DNA of 64,000 nt from Stutzerimonas stutzeri. GTDB lineage: Bacteria; Pseudomonadota; Gammaproteobacteria; Pseudomonadales; Pseudomonadaceae. The notes beneath the pieces were generated by a model, which saw only the letters and a list, made by a program, of their open reading frames with translations, was not told where the DNA came from and made no database searches. Positions within the stretch are counted from its first letter, which is position 1; each line of letters starts with the position of its first letter. The DNA lies in assembly GCF_013522825.1 (NCBI RefSeq), contig NZ_JAAMQZ010000004.1:62001-126000 (forward strand). The letters run 5' to 3'. This document shows, piece after piece, positions 1-62,784 of this stretch. The position numbers and the translations under genes are program-made.

Positions 1-951
1 AACCTTTCCCGTACCTGGGGCGTGATCGTGGTGTTCACGCTGTTTACCTTGCTCTGCATGCTGCTGCTATTGGTGCTGCTGCCGATGCTCGGCAAGCAAT
101 TGATGCATTTGTACGAGCTGGCGCCGCAGGGGCTCGACTGGCTGCAGGTCACGGCGCTGCCCTGGGTGCAGACGCGGTTCGGCCTCGAAGAAGACTTCTG
201 GCGCTTCGACCAGCTCAAGAGCGCATTCTCAGGCAACCTCGGCAGCACAAAGGATGTGCTGGCGGTGATCCTCAGTCAGGCGACGGCTTCGAGCCTGGCG
301 CTGCTGGCCTGGCTGGCGAATCTGCTGCTGGTGCCGGTGGTCTGTTTCTATCTGCTGCGTGACTGGGACCTGATCATGGCCAAGTTGCGCGGGCTGCTGC
401 CGCGCCGGCGCGAGCAGACCATCATGCTGCTGATGCGTGAATGCCATGAGGTGATCGGCGCCTTCCTGCGTGGTCAGTTGCTGGTGATGCTGGCGCTGGC
501 GGTGGTCTATTCCGCTGGTCTGATGCTGGTCGGTGTCGAGCTGGGGCTGTTGATCGGGGTGCTGGCCGGGCTCGCCAGCATCGTGCCCTACATGGGCTTC
601 GTGGTCGGCATCGGTGCGGCGATCGTCGCGGTACTGTTCCAGTTCGGTCTCGATCCCTATCCCTTGCTGGGCGTTGTGGCGGTATTCACGGTGGGGCAGA
701 TGCTCGAAGGCATGTTGCTGACGCCGCTGCTGGTGGGGGATCGGATCGGCCTGCATCCCGTGGCGGTGATCTTTGCGGTGCTGGCCGGCGGGCAGCTGTT
801 CGGCTTCGCCGGGGTGTTGCTGGCGCTGCCGGTGGCGGCGGTGATCATGGTTCTGCTGCGTCATGTGCATGATCTCTATAAACTCTCCGATTTGTACGCC
901 GAGCCCGTCGTCGAAGCGCCCGCACCCATCGAGCCGCCAAGTCAGCCATGA
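1..951 (+). CDS. perM: AI-2E family transporter / PerM-like permease (5' partial)
   Basis: The frame is open from the first base, so the gene starts upstream of the window; 316 codons are visible, and family members are about 350 residues, so roughly 40 are missing. The protein is strongly hydrophobic with several membrane helices, a short charged loop (RRRREQ) in the middle and the glycine-rich helices typical of the AI-2E/PerM exporter family. The C-terminal tail is proline-rich and probably cytoplasmic. The substrate of this family is unsettled: some members move autoinducer-2, others act in sodium-proton exchange. Its TGA stop overlaps the hda start (ATGA), so the two genes are translationally coupled, the same pairing as in P. 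aeruginosa. Confidence 0.85.
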   Translation, partial: NLSRTWGVIVVFTLFTLLCMLLLLVLLPMLGKQLMHLYELAPQGLDWLQVTALPWVQTRFGLEEDFWRFDQLKSAFSGNLGSTKDVLAVILSQATASSLALLAWLANLLLVPVVCFYLLRDWDLIMAKLRGLLPRRREQTIMLLMRECHEVIGAFLRGQLLVMLALAVVYSAGLMLVGVELGLLIGVLAGLASIVPYMGFVVGIGAAIVAVLFQFGLDPYPLLGVVAVFTVGQMLEGMLLTPLLVGDRIGLHPVAVIFAVLAGGQLFGFAGVLLALPVAAVIMVLLRHVHDLYKLSDLYAEPVVEAPAPIEPPSQP

Positions 952-1652
952 AACCCATCCAGCTCCCTCTGGGCATCCGTCTTCGTGACGATGCAACCTT
1001 CGCCAACTTCTATCCGGGCGCCAATGCTGCTGCGATGGGCTATGTCGAGCGTGTCTGTTCGCCCGAGGCCGGCTGGTCGGATGAGCTGATCTATCTCTGG
1101 GGCAATCTTGGCGTCGGGCGCAGTCACCTGTTACAGGCTGCCTGCCTGCGTGTCGAACAGCGTGGTGAGCGGGCTGTCTATCTGCCGCTGGCTGAAGTAG
1201 CCGAGTATGGTCCGGCGCTGCTGGATAATCTGGAGCAATGCGAGCTGGTGTGCCTGGATGACCTGGATGCGGTCGCCGCTGACCCGCTTTGGGAAGAGGC
1301 GCTGTTCCATCTGTTCAATCGCCTGCGCGACAGCGGGCGCCGTCTACTGCTCGCGGCAGATGCCTCGCCGCGTGAAATCGCCGTGCAGCTGCCCGATCTC
1401 AAGTCCCGGCTGAGCCTGGCGCTGGTGTTCCAGCTGCAGCAGCTCTCTGATGAGGACAAGCTGCGCGCGCTTCAGTTGCGTGCCTCGCGGCGTGGCCTGA
1501 ACCTGCCGGATGATGTGGGTCGTTTCATCCTCACACGCGGCGCAAGGAGCATGAACGCCCTGTTCGAACTCCTCGACCGCCTCGATCAGGCCTCATTGCA
1601 GGCCCAGCGCAAACTGACCATTCCCTTCCTCAAGGAAACGCTCGGCTGGTAA
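948..1652 (+). CDS. hda: DnaA regulatory inactivator Hda
   Basis: 234 residues, the expected size. Hda binds the DNA-loaded beta clamp and stimulates hydrolysis of DnaA-bound ATP, which prevents re-initiation. The N-terminal QLPLGI (residues 5-10) fits the clamp-binding motif. A Walker A-like loop, GNLGVGRSH, lies at 52-60 and a Walker B, CLDDLD, at about 102-107, followed by the small helical AAA+ lid. It resembles DnaA domain III only and lacks the DNA-binding domain IV, which separates it from DnaA itself. The ATG overlaps the stop of the permease gene, so expression is probably coupled to it. Confidence 0.93.
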   Translation: MKPIQLPLGIRLRDDATFANFYPGANAAAMGYVERVCSPEAGWSDELIYLWGNLGVGRSHLLQAACLRVEQRGERAVYLPLAEVAEYGPALLDNLEQCELVCLDDLDAVAADPLWEEALFHLFNRLRDSGRRLLLAADASPREIAVQLPDLKSRLSLALVFQLQQLSDEDKLRALQLRASRRGLNLPDDVGRFILTRGARSMNALFELLDRLDQASLQAQRKLTIPFLKETLGW

Positions 1653-1735: not shown

Positions 1736-2572
1736 CTATGCGTGGATGGAGAGGCTGCCAGGCATGGGTGCTGTCGTTGCGTTCAGGCTGCTTATGGTCT
1801 GCTCGACCTGTTTCAGGTCTCTCTCTATTTTATTGAGGTCTTTCTGGTCTTCGCGGTCGGGTTTGCGCTGGGCTGCCTTGGCGGCGGCCACCAGGGCCTT
1901 GAGTTCGCGCAGGGTCTCTGCGAGCAGTTTGGCGTCGGAATGGCGTTGGGATTGCCGGCTTCCTGCAGGGCGCTGGGCGTCGAACGAGGTGGGCTGCGGG
2001 TGGGGCGCTTCTTCGTCTTCGTTTTCTTCTTCGGCGCTGGCTTGCTGATCGGCAAGTTCTTGCTGGACTTGCGCGGTGAGCGTCTGGGCTTGCTGTTGTT
2101 CGTTGCTCTCCGGCATGGATGAGGTGTCAGGGCTGTCGGTCGGCATGCCGGGTTGGCTGGGCAGGGCGCCTGTCTCGCTGTAGGTCAATGTCGGCGTGCT
2201 CATGCCGTTGCCGCCTTCGTTCAGCACTTTGGCCGCTGCGGCGAGTGTGCCAGCCAGTTGCTTGAGCTCACGCAGCAGGGCCTTGGAGCCGCCAAAGAGC
2301 AAAATCATCCGCTTGAGCATCTGGATGCGTTGATGAACCTGCGCCACCTGCTCGCGAGCGCTGTTTTTGCGGGCTTCATCGAAGCGAGTGGAGAGTGCGC
2401 TGCCAAAGGCGTGGGCGGCTTCGCCTGTTTTCTTCAAGGCTGCGCCGAGGGTCTGGCGTACATCAGGCGTGGACTCATCGGACTCGACAGCGGCTTGGGC
2501 GATACGTGACGTGCTCGCATCGGCACGCTGGATGAAAGATGCTTTGGAAGCGGTATCGAGAAAGAGGGTCAT
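1736..2572 (-). CDS. Uncharacterised helical/coiled-coil protein with FliA-type promoter
   Basis: 278 residues from the ATG at 2572, which has AAGGAG eight bases upstream; a longer frame exists but lacks a ribosome binding site. I do not recognise a family. There is no signal peptide and no membrane span apart from a short hydrophobic patch near MILLFGG (89-95). Residues 60-120 are helical. Residues 140-210 are low-complexity, rich in Ser, Pro, Gln and Glu, with an acidic run near EEENEDEEA. Residues 213-264 look like a coiled coil. A near-consensus sigma-28 promoter sits just upstream, suggesting a link to flagella, chemotaxis or motility. The architecture is compatible with a secreted or scaffold protein, but that is a guess. 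Confidence 0.7.
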   Translation of the reverse strand: MTLFLDTASKASFIQRADASTSRIAQAAVESDESTPDVRQTLGAALKKTGEAAHAFGSALSTRFDEARKNSAREQVAQVHQRIQMLKRMILLFGGSKALLRELKQLAGTLAAAAKVLNEGGNGMSTPTLTYSETGALPSQPGMPTDSPDTSSMPESNEQQQAQTLTAQVQQELADQQASAEEENEDEEAPHPQPTSFDAQRPAGSRQSQRHSDAKLLAETLRELKALVAAAKAAQRKPDREDQKDLNKIERDLKQVEQTISSLNATTAPMPGSLSIHA

Positions 2573-2598
2573 GCCTGCACTCCTTGCGCTATCCAACC

Positions 2599-2625
2599 CT
2601 ATCGGCTGAACGCCTGGAAAGTTGA
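2599..2625 (-). promoter_or_regulatory. Candidate FliA (sigma-28) promoter
   Basis: Read on the minus strand: TCAACTTT, an 11-base spacer, then GCCGATAG. The enterobacterial sigma-28 consensus is TAAAGTTT-N11-GCCGATAA, so the spacing is exact and the -10 differs only in its last base. The predicted start site near 2592 would give a leader of about 20 bases carrying the AAGGAG of the gene starting at 2572. Confidence 0.6.
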
Positions 2626-2805: not shown

Positions 2806-2834
2806 AAAAAAGGGTCCCTCGCGGGACCCTTTTC
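2806..2834 (-). terminator. Rho-independent terminator of the CoA-transferase gene
   Basis: A perfect 11-bp stem (AAAAGGGTCCC at 2808-2818 with its complement at 2823-2833) around the loop TCGC, with a T run on the minus strand, 19 bases after the stop codon. Confidence 0.9.
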
Positions 2835-2852: not shown

Positions 2853-4364
2853 TTACTTCTTCAGATGCATGGTGCCATGCTCAGCCAGGTTGGCGTGCCA
2901 GGAGAAGGCTTTTTCCAGTACGTGCGGAGTGTGGCCGCCGCGCGCCTTGGCCTCTTCCAGATAGTCATAGGCTTGCTGCTTGTAATCGGGATGCATGCAG
3001 TTTTCGATGATGCGCTGAGCCGCTTCGACGGGCGCGAGGCCGCGCAGATCGGCGTAGCCCTGTTCGGTGATGATGCAGTCCACATCGTGGTTGGTATGGT
3101 CGATGTGGGTTGCGAACGGCACGATCGAAGAGATCTTGCCCTGCTTCGCCGTGGAGGTGGTCACGAAGATGCTGATGCGTGCGTTACGGGCGAAGTCACC
3201 CGAACCGCCGATACCGTTCATCATGTGGGTACCGCTGACGTGAGTGGAGTTCACGTTGCCGTAGATATCGGCTTCCAGCGCAGTGTTGAAGGAAATGATA
3301 CCCAGGCGGCGGATGACTTCAGGATGGTTGGAGATTTCCTGCGGACGGAATACCACCTTGCCTGCGTACTTGGCCATGTCGGAAGCCAGGTTGTCGACGC
3401 GCTTCTTGGACAGCGAGAAGGCGGTGCCGGCAGCGAACTTCACCACGCCAGCGTCGATCAGGTCGAATACGCCGTCCTGCAGTACTTCCGAAGCCACCAC
3501 CAGGTCTTTGAACTCGGAGGTGCGCATGCCGTTCAGTACGGCGTTGGCTACGGAACCCACACCGGACTGCAGCGGAGCCAGGCTGTTGGTCAGGCGACCG
3601 GCTTTTACTTCTGCGCGGAGGAAGTCCAGCAGGTTGTCGGCGATCTGCTGGGTTTCTTCGTTCGGTTCGAACAGCGGCGACGGGATGTCCGGCTGGCTGG
3701 ACAGGACGATGCCGCGAACCTTGGCCGGATCAACCGGGATGCCCACGGTGCCGATACGGGTACTGATGTCATAGACAGGGATGTCTTTACGAGCGTTTTC
3801 ACCGGCAGGGCCAGGCACATAGATATCGTGCATGCCCTCGTACTCGCGCGGAGCGGAGGTGTTCAGCTCGATGATCACGTGCTTGGCGGTCTGTACGAAG
3901 ATCGGCGAGTTACCCACGGAGCCGGTCGGAATGATCTGGCCGTCTTCGGTAATGGCTGCCGCTTCGATGATCGCGTAGTCGACCTGAGGCAGGACGCCCT
4001 GGCGGATCAGCTCTGCCATGTGGGACAGATGCTGGTCGATATAGAGGACTTCACCGGCGTTGATTTTCTTGCGCTGGACCGGGTTGCCCTGATAGGGAAT
4101 GCGCTTGTTGATGATGCCGGCTTCAGCCATGGATTGGTCAGCGGCAGGCCCCATGGAGGCGCCGGTGAACAGGTTGACCTTGAACTTCTCTTTTTGGCCG
4201 CGCTCAGACAATGCTCTGGGGAATTCTTTTGGCTCACCGAACAGAGTGAAGCCACTCATGCCCAGTGTCATGCCGTCTTCGATCCACGATGCAGCTTCTT
4301 CTGCGGAAACGACTTTATCCAGGAATGCAGCATTGCGAATGTATTTGTTCAAATCCGTTGTCAT
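2853..4364 (-). CDS. Acetyl-CoA hydrolase/transferase family protein (succinate CoA-transferase type)
   Basis: 503 residues, the usual length of class I CoA-transferases of the Cat1/AarC/Ach1 group. These move CoA between acetate, succinate or propionate and their thioesters through a glutamyl-CoA intermediate. The motif ASEVLQDG places the conserved glutamate at 293, and the glycine-rich SGVGSVANAV lies just before it. GIGGSGDFARNA and TEQGYADLRGL near the C-terminus are family hallmarks. In Pseudomonas the enzyme is thought to help use or detoxify short-chain acids, feeding the TCA cycle encoded later in this window. The gene stands alone with its own terminator. Substrate preference cannot be read from the sequence. 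Confidence 0.88.
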   Translation of the reverse strand: MTTDLNKYIRNAAFLDKVVSAEEAASWIEDGMTLGMSGFTLFGEPKEFPRALSERGQKEKFKVNLFTGASMGPAADQSMAEAGIINKRIPYQGNPVQRKKINAGEVLYIDQHLSHMAELIRQGVLPQVDYAIIEAAAITEDGQIIPTGSVGNSPIFVQTAKHVIIELNTSAPREYEGMHDIYVPGPAGENARKDIPVYDISTRIGTVGIPVDPAKVRGIVLSSQPDIPSPLFEPNEETQQIADNLLDFLRAEVKAGRLTNSLAPLQSGVGSVANAVLNGMRTSEFKDLVVASEVLQDGVFDLIDAGVVKFAAGTAFSLSKKRVDNLASDMAKYAGKVVFRPQEISNHPEVIRRLGIISFNTALEADIYGNVNSTHVSGTHMMNGIGGSGDFARNARISIFVTTSTAKQGKISSIVPFATHIDHTNHDVDCIITEQGYADLRGLAPVEAAQRIIENCMHPDYKQQAYDYLEEAKARGGHTPHVLEKAFSWHANLAEHGTMHLKK

Positions 4365-59730: not shown

Positions 59731-61350
59731 ATGCTTGTGCGCAATATGAATGTTTCTCGGCGATCAGCGCTGGGATTCGGCCTGATAGGTACTATTCTGG
59801 TTCTGCTGGGGCTGTTCGCGCTGCAGAAAATGTCGCAGATGCACAGCGAAGCGAAGGGGCTGAGTGAACACTGGTTGCCGAGCATCGTAGCTTTGGGAGA
59901 GCTGAACCAACATACGCTGCGTACCCGTATTTATACTCTGCGCTTGGTACTCGACCCTGCTCGGGCCGAAGCGAATCGCGCAGCTCTTGATGAGTTCCGA
60001 AATGGGCTACGTCACTATGAAGAGGCGTATCAGCGCAACATAGTGCTGGCGCGCGAACAGGAACTTTTTGACAACTATCGGAGTACGCGGGAAGCCTACG
60101 AAGAGGTCCTCGCAGAGGTCACCAGTCTGGAGCGGCAGGGCCAGACCGGGGCGGCGATTGAAGTGATCGGCTCGAAACTGAATGTGACCGGCAACGCGCT
60201 AAACGATTCGTTGCATAAGCTGGTTGTATTCAGTTCTGAACAGTCATCACTTTCGGTCCAGAACTCGGAGAAGATCTTTCAGACCTCTCGGCTGTGGATG
60301 ATTGCAACATTTGTGGTGTCGGCATTTCTGACAGCGCTGCTCGCCTGGGTATTCACCCGCAGTATCGTCCAGCCTCTGAATGAGGCGGTTGCCATCGCTG
60401 AAGTGGTCGCAGCCGGGAACCTGACGCAGCACGTCGAAGTGCTCGGACGTGATGAGCCGGCACGTCTTCTGGCAGCCTTGAAAGTCATGCAGGAAACCCT
60501 GCGCAGCACCATCCAGGGTATTTCCGATTCCTCGAATCAGCTGGCATCAGCTGCTGAAGAGCTGAATGTGGTCACTGAGGATTCGACCCGTGGCCTGCAT
60601 CAGCAGAACCATGAGATCGAGCAGGCGGCGACGGCGGTGAACGAGATGACCGCGGCGGTCGACGAAGTAGCGCGCAATGCCGTGGCGACTTCCGAAGCCT
60701 CGCGCGAGTCGGACGCAACTGCGCAGCAGGGTCGCCAGCAGGTCATCAGAACGGTCGACTCGATCAATCTTCTGGACGCTGATGTGAGCGCGACGGCTGA
60801 GCAGGTCGAGCGGCTGGCGGGGCAAGTGCGTGATATCAGCCAGGTGCTGGATGTGATTCGCTCGATTGCCGATCAGACTAATCTGCTGGCTCTGAACGCC
60901 GCCATCGAGGCCGCACGCGCTGGCGATGCCGGTCGTGGCTTCGCCGTCGTGGCCGATGAGGTGCGGGCACTGGCGCATCGCACGCAGCAGTCCACGCAGG
61001 AAATCGAGCAGATGATCGCTGCTGTCCATCAGGGCACAGACAAAGCGGTACAGGCCATGCAGACCAGCAGTGATCGTGCCCACACCACACTGGAGCTTGC
61101 GCAGGCCGCTGGCGAGGCGTTGGAAGGCATCACGGCGGCCATCAGCCAGATCAGCGAACGTAACCTGGTGATTGCCAGCGCGTCGGAGGAGCAGGCTCAG
61201 GTCGCACGCGAAGTGGACCGCAACCTGGTCAATATTCGTGACCTGTCGCTGCAATCCGCCGCCGGCGCCAACCAGACCAGTGCGGCGAGCCAGGAACTGT
61301 CCCGGCTCGCCATCGATCTGAACAACCTGGTCGCGCGTTTCCGTATCTGA
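59731..61350 (+). CDS. Methyl-accepting chemotaxis protein
   Basis: 539 residues. First membrane helix about 14-32, a four-helix-bundle ligand domain (about 35-185; 4HB_MCP type, helical and rich in Glu/Arg), second membrane helix about 190-212, HAMP domain (about 213-265), and a signalling hairpin whose tip is IRSIADQTNLLALNAAIEAA (about 374-393). No C-terminal CheR/CheB pentapeptide is present. The ligand cannot be read from sequence. A poor sigma-28-like sequence lies upstream. Confidence 0.92.
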   Translation: MLVRNMNVSRRSALGFGLIGTILVLLGLFALQKMSQMHSEAKGLSEHWLPSIVALGELNQHTLRTRIYTLRLVLDPARAEANRAALDEFRNGLRHYEEAYQRNIVLAREQELFDNYRSTREAYEEVLAEVTSLERQGQTGAAIEVIGSKLNVTGNALNDSLHKLVVFSSEQSSLSVQNSEKIFQTSRLWMIATFVVSAFLTALLAWVFTRSIVQPLNEAVAIAEVVAAGNLTQHVEVLGRDEPARLLAALKVMQETLRSTIQGISDSSNQLASAAEELNVVTEDSTRGLHQQNHEIEQAATAVNEMTAAVDEVARNAVATSEASRESDATAQQGRQQVIRTVDSINLLDADVSATAEQVERLAGQVRDISQVLDVIRSIADQTNLLALNAAIEAARAGDAGRGFAVVADEVRALAHRTQQSTQEIEQMIAAVHQGTDKAVQAMQTSSDRAHTTLELAQAAGEALEGITAAISQISERNLVIASASEEQAQVAREVDRNLVNIRDLSLQSAAGANQTSAASQELSRLAIDLNNLVARFRI

Positions 61351-61359
61351 ACAGGCAGC

Positions 61360-61386
61360 TGACGCCTCGGGCCAGTCGAGGCGTCA
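61360..61386 (+). terminator. Hairpin after the chemoreceptor gene
   Basis: TGACGCCTCG and CGAGGCGTCA form a perfect 10-bp stem around a 7-base loop, ten bases after the stop. No T run. Confidence 0.65.
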
Positions 61387-61539
61387 CGCACGCTGCAATA
61401 TCGTTCAGACGTTGCATTACAAGTGCTGGGCAGATGGGCCGCGGGTGCGTACCATCCGGCGTTTTATCCGGTCGCCCAGCGTGCTCGTGTTGTCCGCCAC
61501 GCGCCAGTATCCGTAGCCTCTTACGCCGAGACTCTCTTC

Positions 61540-62784
61540 ATGTCCAACCTGTCCACTCGTGTTTTCAGAGCCTATAGCCGTATCAGTCTGGTGGCGCAGA
61601 TCGTCACGGGGCTGGTTGCCGGCTGCCTGTTGGCCTGGCTGTTTCCCGAAGCCGCGCGTTCGGTCAGCTTGCTGGGTGATCTCTTCGTGGCGGGCCTGAA
61701 GGCCGTGGCGCCGGTGCTGGTCTTCGTGCTGGTAACCGCTTCGCTGGCCAACCACAAGCAGGGACAACCCACGCATATTCGCCCGATCCTGCTTTTATAT
61801 GCCCTTGGAACCCTGAGTGCGGCGGTGGTGGCCGTAATTGCCAGTAGTCTGTTCCCGACGACCCTGACCCTCGTCAACGAGGCAAGCGATGTAGTGGCGC
61901 CATCTGGCGTCGGTGCCGTGCTCAAGACGCTGCTGTTCAATATTGCCGACAACCCTGTACATGCACTTATCGAGGGGAACTACATCGGCATTCTGGCATG
62001 GGCGATTGGGCTGGGATTTGCCTTTCGCCATGCGCGGGAAACCACGCGCGAGCTGGTCAGCGATATTTCCGAGGGCGTGATGCTTATCGTCAAGGTGGTG
62101 ATCCGCTTCGCTCCTCTGGGCGTTTTCGGGCTGGTCGCCGGAACGCTGGCGCAATCCGGGTTCGCGGTGCTCGCCAGCTATTTTCAGCTGTTGCTGGTAC
62201 TGGTTGGCAGCATGCTGTTCGTGGCGCTGCTGATGAATCCATTGATCGTGTACTGGAAGCTTCGCCGCAATCCCTACCCACTGGTTTTCACCTGCCTGCG
62301 AGAAAGCGGGATCACTGCATTCTTCACCCGCAGCTCGGCAGCGAACATTCCGGTCAATATGCAGCTGTGCGAACGTCTGGGGCTGCACAAGGACACCTAT
62401 TCGGTGTCGATTCCGCTCGGGGCAACCATCAACATGGCCGGCGCGGCCATCACCATCACGGTGCTGACCCTGGCTGCAGTCAATACGCTGGGCATCGTGG
62501 TGGATGTGCCGACCGCGATTCTGCTCAGCCTGCTGGCGTCAATCTCTGCCTGCGGCGCCTCGGGTGTGGCGGGGGGATCGTTGTTGCTGATCCCGTTGGC
62601 GTGCAGCCTGTTCGGAATTCCCAATGACCTGGCGATGCAGGTGGTGGCGGTCGGGTTCATCATCGGCATCGTGCAGGATTCGGCGGAGACCGCACTGAAT
62701 TCGTCCACCGATGCGCTGTTCACGGCAGCGTCCTGTATCGCCCATGGCGATACCGTCGAGCTGCCGAATGAACCCTGGAGCTGA
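61540..62784 (+). CDS. sstT: Serine/threonine:sodium symporter SstT
   Basis: 414 residues from the ATG at 61540, the E. coli SstT length; the frame from 61423 is rejected. It is a dicarboxylate/amino acid:cation symporter family member with about eight helices and re-entrant loops. The signature [17 protein letters not shown] and the [22 protein letters not shown] segment (residues about 325-347) bind substrate and Na+. It imports Ser and Thr. Confidence 0.94.

Follow-up and report, generated by a model that had tools for sequence, protein, structure and literature searches.

Is a gene whose product resembles no known protein part of the motility regulon of Stutzerimonas stutzeri? I analysed a stretch of 64,000 nucleotides (hereafter the window; positions 62,001 to 126,000 of contig NZ_JAAMQZ010000004.1 in assembly GCF_013522825.1, or G000:C68:62001-126000, where G000 is the window's own 5.0-Mb genome). 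An orphan gene encoding 278 amino acid residues lies at 2572-1736 on the minus strand, and a promoter of the type recognized by the flagellar sigma factor FliA (sigma-28) stands in front of it. Judging from the sequence, it is very likely that FliA controls this gene, because the promoter is suitably positioned and is retained among homologues. FliA-controlled orphan genes are already known as a kind, as exemplified by flxA of Escherichia coli, and are a known yet little-studied part of motility regulons.

Promoter and start of the orphan gene

The promoter, read directly from the minus strand, has a -35 element TCAACTTT (2625-2618), a spacer of 11 bases (2617-2607), and a -10 element GCCGATAG (2606-2599), and the whole TCAACTTT-N11-GCCGATAG thus spans 2625-2599. 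The -10 element lies 26 nucleotides before the ATG start codon (2572-2570) and 13 bases before a ribosome binding site, AAGGAG (2585-2580), which itself is 7 nucleotides before the ATG and is identical in S. stutzeri V81. A longer frame with a TTG start is also present. The ATG was taken as the start because AAGGAG precedes it and because V81 shares the start context and a similar N-terminus. Near-consensus -35 and -10 elements, the correct spacing, and closeness to a start with a ribosome binding site are the features by which a FliA-regulon gene was judged, and all were found here. In the accessible part of PMC4183435, a C occupies the same -35 position in FliA-dependent E. coli promoters such as those of motAB-cheAW (TAAACTTT) and modABC (TCAACTTC).

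Could such a sequence arise by chance before an unrelated gene? Across all 4,998,235 bases of the genome, only the promoter of the orphan gene matches TCAANNTT-N11-GCCGATA exactly. When up to two mismatches are allowed, the genome has 77 matches and the reversed control pattern also has 77; thus, the weaker matches are mostly noise, and this equality is what speaks for a coincidence. The looser matches include a flagellin gene (two sites), cheV, and chemoreceptor-like genes, all named by eye. Both the fliC site (TAAAGCTT..GCCGAAA) and the cheV site (TAAAGCGT..GCCGATA) are weaker than that of the orphan gene. FliA itself is encoded in this genome (best E value 1.2e-81 with TIGR02479). Together with the homologue counts given below, the uniqueness of the exact match makes a coincidence extremely improbable, barring some different constraint that would keep these bases conserved.

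Another possibility is that a different factor reads the element, or that FliA accounts for just part of its reading while a second promoter provides basal expression. Several FliA-responsive promoters of Pseudomonas putida have high FliA-independent basal activity according to the accessible part of PMC5026340, and bifA has a putative sigma-70 start in addition to a putative sigma-28 start in that of PMC5300878. On the other hand, both elements and their spacing fit the FliA pattern, and a simple scan of 1600-2900 found no sigma-70-like promoter, although this null result says little since shuffled sequences also yield just 0.2 on average. This possibility seems rather unlikely.

The initial annotation had described a FliA-type promoter exact in spacing and nearly exact in sequence, and the direct reading and the genome scan bear this out. 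It had also placed the gene in the motility regulon; this placement is strongly supported, as far as sequence can tell, by the occurrence of the site upstream of all 44 homologues described in the next section.

Homologues and retention of the promoter

Is the promoter kept where the gene is kept? Homologues were selected by protein profile alone, with the promoter left unused. A scan of the genome contigs with the single protein found no homologue, while an alignment-based scan found seven loci. The gene is present in 9 of the 56 genomes of the genus and in 29 of the 398 genomes of the window's family, across 6 of its 19 genera. A class-level search of 369 genomes gave four matches: two already counted, one in G761, which belongs to a different family within the order, and one apparently false. 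The last, in G416 (L098), was dropped, as it seems to be a different gene read on its opposite strand. In the family of G761, the gene was matched in 15 of 151 genomes, among them G761 itself; neighbours in G761 resembling xseA, guaB, and guaA suggest that this family is Halomonadaceae. A second, 51-residue match in G859 was left out. The 29 and 15 homologues of the two families make up the set of 44, and a 45th, L054, lies in a metagenome bin labelled Achromobacter. A plasmid search with one relative as the query gave no match.

The start of each homologue was assigned manually with the alignment as a guide, and two promoter patterns were searched. The loose pattern, T[CAT]AA-N4-N10..12-[GA][CTG]CGA[TC][AG] within 150 bp 5′ of the start, is present in 44 of the 44 homologues and in only 2 of 248 other computed open reading frames (ORFs), and 35 of the 44 sites fall 25-36 nucleotides before the start. 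Of the two control ORFs with a site, one encodes a DUF5610 protein and may likewise be under FliA control. Since the loose pattern was written after inspecting the family, a stricter one, T[CA]AA-N4-N11/12-[GA]CCGA[TC]A, was also run; it is present in 35 of the 44 homologues (L043, L059, L067, L097, L105, L106, L107, L109, and L112 fail) and in none of the 248 controls. For L067 and L107, the loose test used the first in-frame start codon, which is probably too early (the sites lie 4 and 11 nucleotides before it), whereas other starts were used in the strict test, which both fail. The controls were drawn from 20 regions of the window's family by length and G+C content at third codon positions, none being from the other family, and some are not real genes because of this way of picking.

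It had been stated beforehand that the proposal would be overturned if close relatives had the gene but had lost the promoter. The site was found in all 44, and L054, considered below, is the exception. As the homologues are related to one another, the 44 cases are not independent events. Against this relatedness stand the low identity of the proteins, the long branches of the family tree, and the differing spacers. Of 27 relatives that were aligned with the window protein, 24 share 19-27% identity with it, the minimum being 19%. Furthermore, the site accompanies the gene though the gene occupies different genomic places.

The closest pair, the window and S. stutzeri V81, is informative at short range. 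Between the two, the orphan protein is 71% identical, with a ratio of nonsynonymous to synonymous substitution (dN/dS) of 0.38 and a synonymous divergence of 0.43. Both neighbouring genes are 97-99% identical, with a dN/dS of 0.03 and synonymous divergences of 0.48 and 0.30. Thus, the orphan gene is coding and fast-evolving, given its dN/dS of 0.38 against 0.03 for both neighbours. In the promoter, 25 of 26 bases are kept, while the upstream intergenic DNA is partly rearranged. Because conservation is stronger for the regulatory link than for the protein, the function may be approachable via the promoter, and a protein profile combined with a promoter test can reveal likely members of a regulon even when they lack an annotated domain.

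In the tree, the window-type copy clusters with those of two genomes of another genus (100/100), apart from seven other Stutzerimonas copies, although the program warns of long branches. This split suggests that Stutzerimonas may hold two old versions of the gene. In addition, one homologue (L064, in G358:C11) is broken by an in-frame TAG and still has a FliA-like site.

The product and its possible function

What does the gene encode? As the initial annotation had stated, the product has no recognizable family: neither Pfam nor NCBIfam gave a match above the cut-off for the window protein. Its best Pfam match up to an E value of 10 is Plasmid_RAQPRD (17.3 bits against a cut-off of 23.1). Among 9 other members the best Pfam E value is 0.0042, and among 28 members the best NCBIfam E value is 0.00076; each of these matches occurs in few members, and cut-offs are not shown for them. 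Such weak matches of the window protein and of the members (for example FlhF and SMC, in 1 of 28 members each) were judged to be coiled-coil noise. A profile search of PDB gave nothing usable.

The same annotation had noted helices, a middle rich in Ser, Pro, Gln, and Glu, and a C-terminal coiled coil. An AlphaFold2 model likewise predicts, at low confidence, helices at residues 38-93, 97-118, 203-234, and 240-264, with ends and middle of low confidence; these would form two helical hairpins (38-118 and 203-264) joined by a disordered linker. When the hairpins were compared as an internal repeat, the hhalign probability was 23%. The helical core contains the invariant or near-invariant residues K69, A72, R82, L86, K97, L110, L117, L224, K225, and D239 (window numbering, 28 sequences). 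The protein ends in SLSIHA, and a C-terminal tail of the form [IVLF]-x-[IVL]-x-[VIA]-end, a pattern defined after inspecting the family, is present in 42 of the 44 members and in 1 of 261 other computed ORFs. The two exceptions are L071, which stops at a contig edge, and L104, which has an altered end. No signal peptide or membrane span was seen by eye in the window protein.

The gene is probably a single-gene late (class IV) flagellar gene outside the flagellar cluster, whose product may be an accessory protein, with a cytoplasmic adaptor as the leading candidate. RNA polymerase with FliA would transcribe it, and the product would be made late, alongside flagellin and chemotaxis proteins, after the exit of FlgM from the cell. 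Less surely, it would be a cytoplasmic accessory protein, lacking a signal peptide and a membrane span, in which two helical hairpins on a flexible linker may serve the machinery of motility or chemotaxis as an adaptor, while the short conserved C-terminal strand may dock to a partner.

Alternatively, the product may be a substrate of flagellar type III export, with the disordered N-terminus serving as the signal, ending up in or on the filament or hook or in the medium. In line with this, residues 4-35 have a predicted local distance difference test score (pLDDT) under 50, no signal peptide or membrane helix is seen by eye, evolution is fast (dN/dS 0.38), and the timing would be late flagellar if the gene is FliA-driven. 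However, no hook, filament, cap, or junction family matches the protein above the cut-off, the PDB profile search found none at an E value below 0.2, and export signals are not reliably recognizable from sequence. Moreover, the products of FliA-driven orphan genes in E. coli are not known to reside elsewhere than in the cytoplasm or the membrane. In rough terms, the cytoplasmic adaptor is the tentative choice, a little short of an even chance, while an export substrate is a rather doubtful one and some other function is slightly more doubtful still.

Several observations weigh against a FliA-driven adaptor. The homologue L054 has no FliA-like site by the loose pattern. FliA is found over the cut-off in 388 genomes of the window's family while the gene is in 29 of 398; since it is absent from most FliA-bearing relatives, the gene is hardly needed for swimming as such and is rather accessory. 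None of the 10 family genomes lacking FliA over the cut-off has the gene, but just 0.7 would be expected among them, and the co-occurrence with fliA is therefore uninformative. According to the accessible part of PMC4183435, 30 of the 52 FliA sites known in E. coli are intragenic, and only 5 of these 30 were accompanied by a detectable RNA change. As such sites are mostly without a detectable RNA change, a FliA site need not mean regulation; in contrast to them, the site of the orphan gene lies close 5′ of the start. The structure predicted by AlphaFold2 from an alignment of 8 sequences is weak (mean pLDDT 60, predicted template modelling score 0.45), and a fold search with it gave no match at an E value of 0.001 or better. 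Because of the weak model and the lack of a fold match, the adaptor idea has no direct support.

How does the gene compare with known FliA-dependent genes? The E. coli genes flxA and modA are precedents. FlxA (PF14282) is a short, helix-rich protein, but it is not among the Pfam matches of the window protein up to an E value of 10. No FlxA was found over the cut-off in the 56 genomes of the genus, and the 14 control genomes also gave none, so that the sensitivity of this search is unproven. Matches below the cut-off in 4 of the 56 genomes are other proteins, none of them with a FliA-like site by the pattern used. The FliA (class IV) regulon of Pseudomonas has fliC, fliS, and mcpG as strict members and cheV3, flgM, and PP4328 as partial members. 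Like the orphan gene, some of the FliA promoters of Pseudomonas lie outside the flagellar cluster, such as those of mcpG and bifA (PMC5026340 and PMC5300878, both as accessible). On the other hand, the Pseudomonas regulon encodes flagellar, chemotaxis, or cyclic di-GMP products, whereas the orphan product has no recognizable domain and occurs in a minority of species. DUF5610 (PF18433) is likewise a domain of unknown function, one of whose genes has a FliA-like site and the peptide MTLPITP, but the window protein has no DUF5610 match up to an E value of 10.

A bolder and quite improbable idea is that the homologues form an undescribed flagellar-regulon protein family in two families of one order, recognizable by a FliA promoter, a core of helices, and a strand at the C-terminus that may dock to a common partner or be a sorting tag. 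Since the tail of a second orphan of this genome with a FliA-like site (L008, described below) is similar (IDLAI), such tails could label a group of proteins made under FliA and sharing one receptor. No model of the family exists in the libraries searched (Pfam and NCBIfam). No paper recognized as treating the family was found in the full-text literature, which is weak evidence of absence as an unnamed family is unsearchable by name. A family that spans two bacterial families and keeps its core and tail provides well-delimited knock-outs, partners, and motifs to examine. Retention of the promoter where the protein is hardly recognizable any more suggests an accessory component of bacterial swimming that has yet to be studied.

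Surroundings and other FliA-like sites

In the window, the orphan gene is convergent with a gene at 948-1652 (plus strand), which I take to be a DnaA-related, Hda-like gene. A gene at 2853-4364 (minus strand), presumably for an acetyl-CoA hydrolase/transferase-like protein, lies 5′ of the orphan gene on the same strand. V81 has the orphan gene between the same two genes, as named by eye. A hairpin recognized by eye at 2812-2829 (minus strand) is probably the terminator of the acetyl-CoA hydrolase-like gene upstream, and V81 also has an inverted repeat with a T run. The hairpin is not among the features listed by a computed scan. With this hairpin, the orphan gene would be a separate transcription unit.

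The gene had been said to lie far from any flagellar cluster. In agreement, none was recognized by eye among the ORFs of the window (first 62 residues of each), and none was seen within about 4.5 kb of the homologue in 12 regions. By eye, an AMP-nucleosidase-like gene is near the homologue in 7 of these 12 regions and also in L036 and L038, and an xseA-like gene adjoins the homologue in 4 of the 10 loci viewed from the other family. The window has two adjacent genes at 59731-62784, the first chemoreceptor-like by eye and the second without identification; neither matched in the genome-wide FliA pattern search. In two Stutzerimonas genomes (L033 and L039, 5′ half), repeats resembling clustered regularly interspaced short palindromic repeats (CRISPR) lie upstream of the homologue, visible as repeated peptides in the translations.

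FliA-like sites were also found before other genes. A DUF5610 gene (L088:2599-3237 in G087; E value 4.3e-34) has one upstream, and MTLPITP near its N-terminus may be compared with MTLPIS of several members of the orphan family. In the window's own genome, a 263-residue orphan (L013:651-1439), with no Pfam match up to an E value of 0.01, has TAAAGCTT-N11-GCCGTTA 61 nucleotides before the ATG. A second orphan there, of 365 residues (L008:1501-2646, that is G000:C90:6543-7688), has TCAACTTT-N11-GCCGAAA 25 nucleotides before the ATG. It has no Pfam match up to an E value of 0.1, Asp/Gly-rich stretches with a calcium-binding look by eye, and the tail IDLAI. Relatives were found in 26 of 119 family genomes, many matching only part of the protein. 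The eight closest (L138-L145, L138 being the L008 gene) all end in [IV]DL[AV][IVM], and a FliA-like site is near the start in only three of them (L138, L139, and L144). Eight more distant relatives (L146-L153) have sites 207-311 nucleotides before the matched part and other C-termini.

Lastly, a divergent neighbour of one homologue (L099:2561-3061, 166 residues), with weak DUF2570 and FlxA matches in Pfam below the cut-off, has TTGAGTTT-N11-GCCGATAG upstream. It is possible that two FliA promoters stand back to back at this locus.
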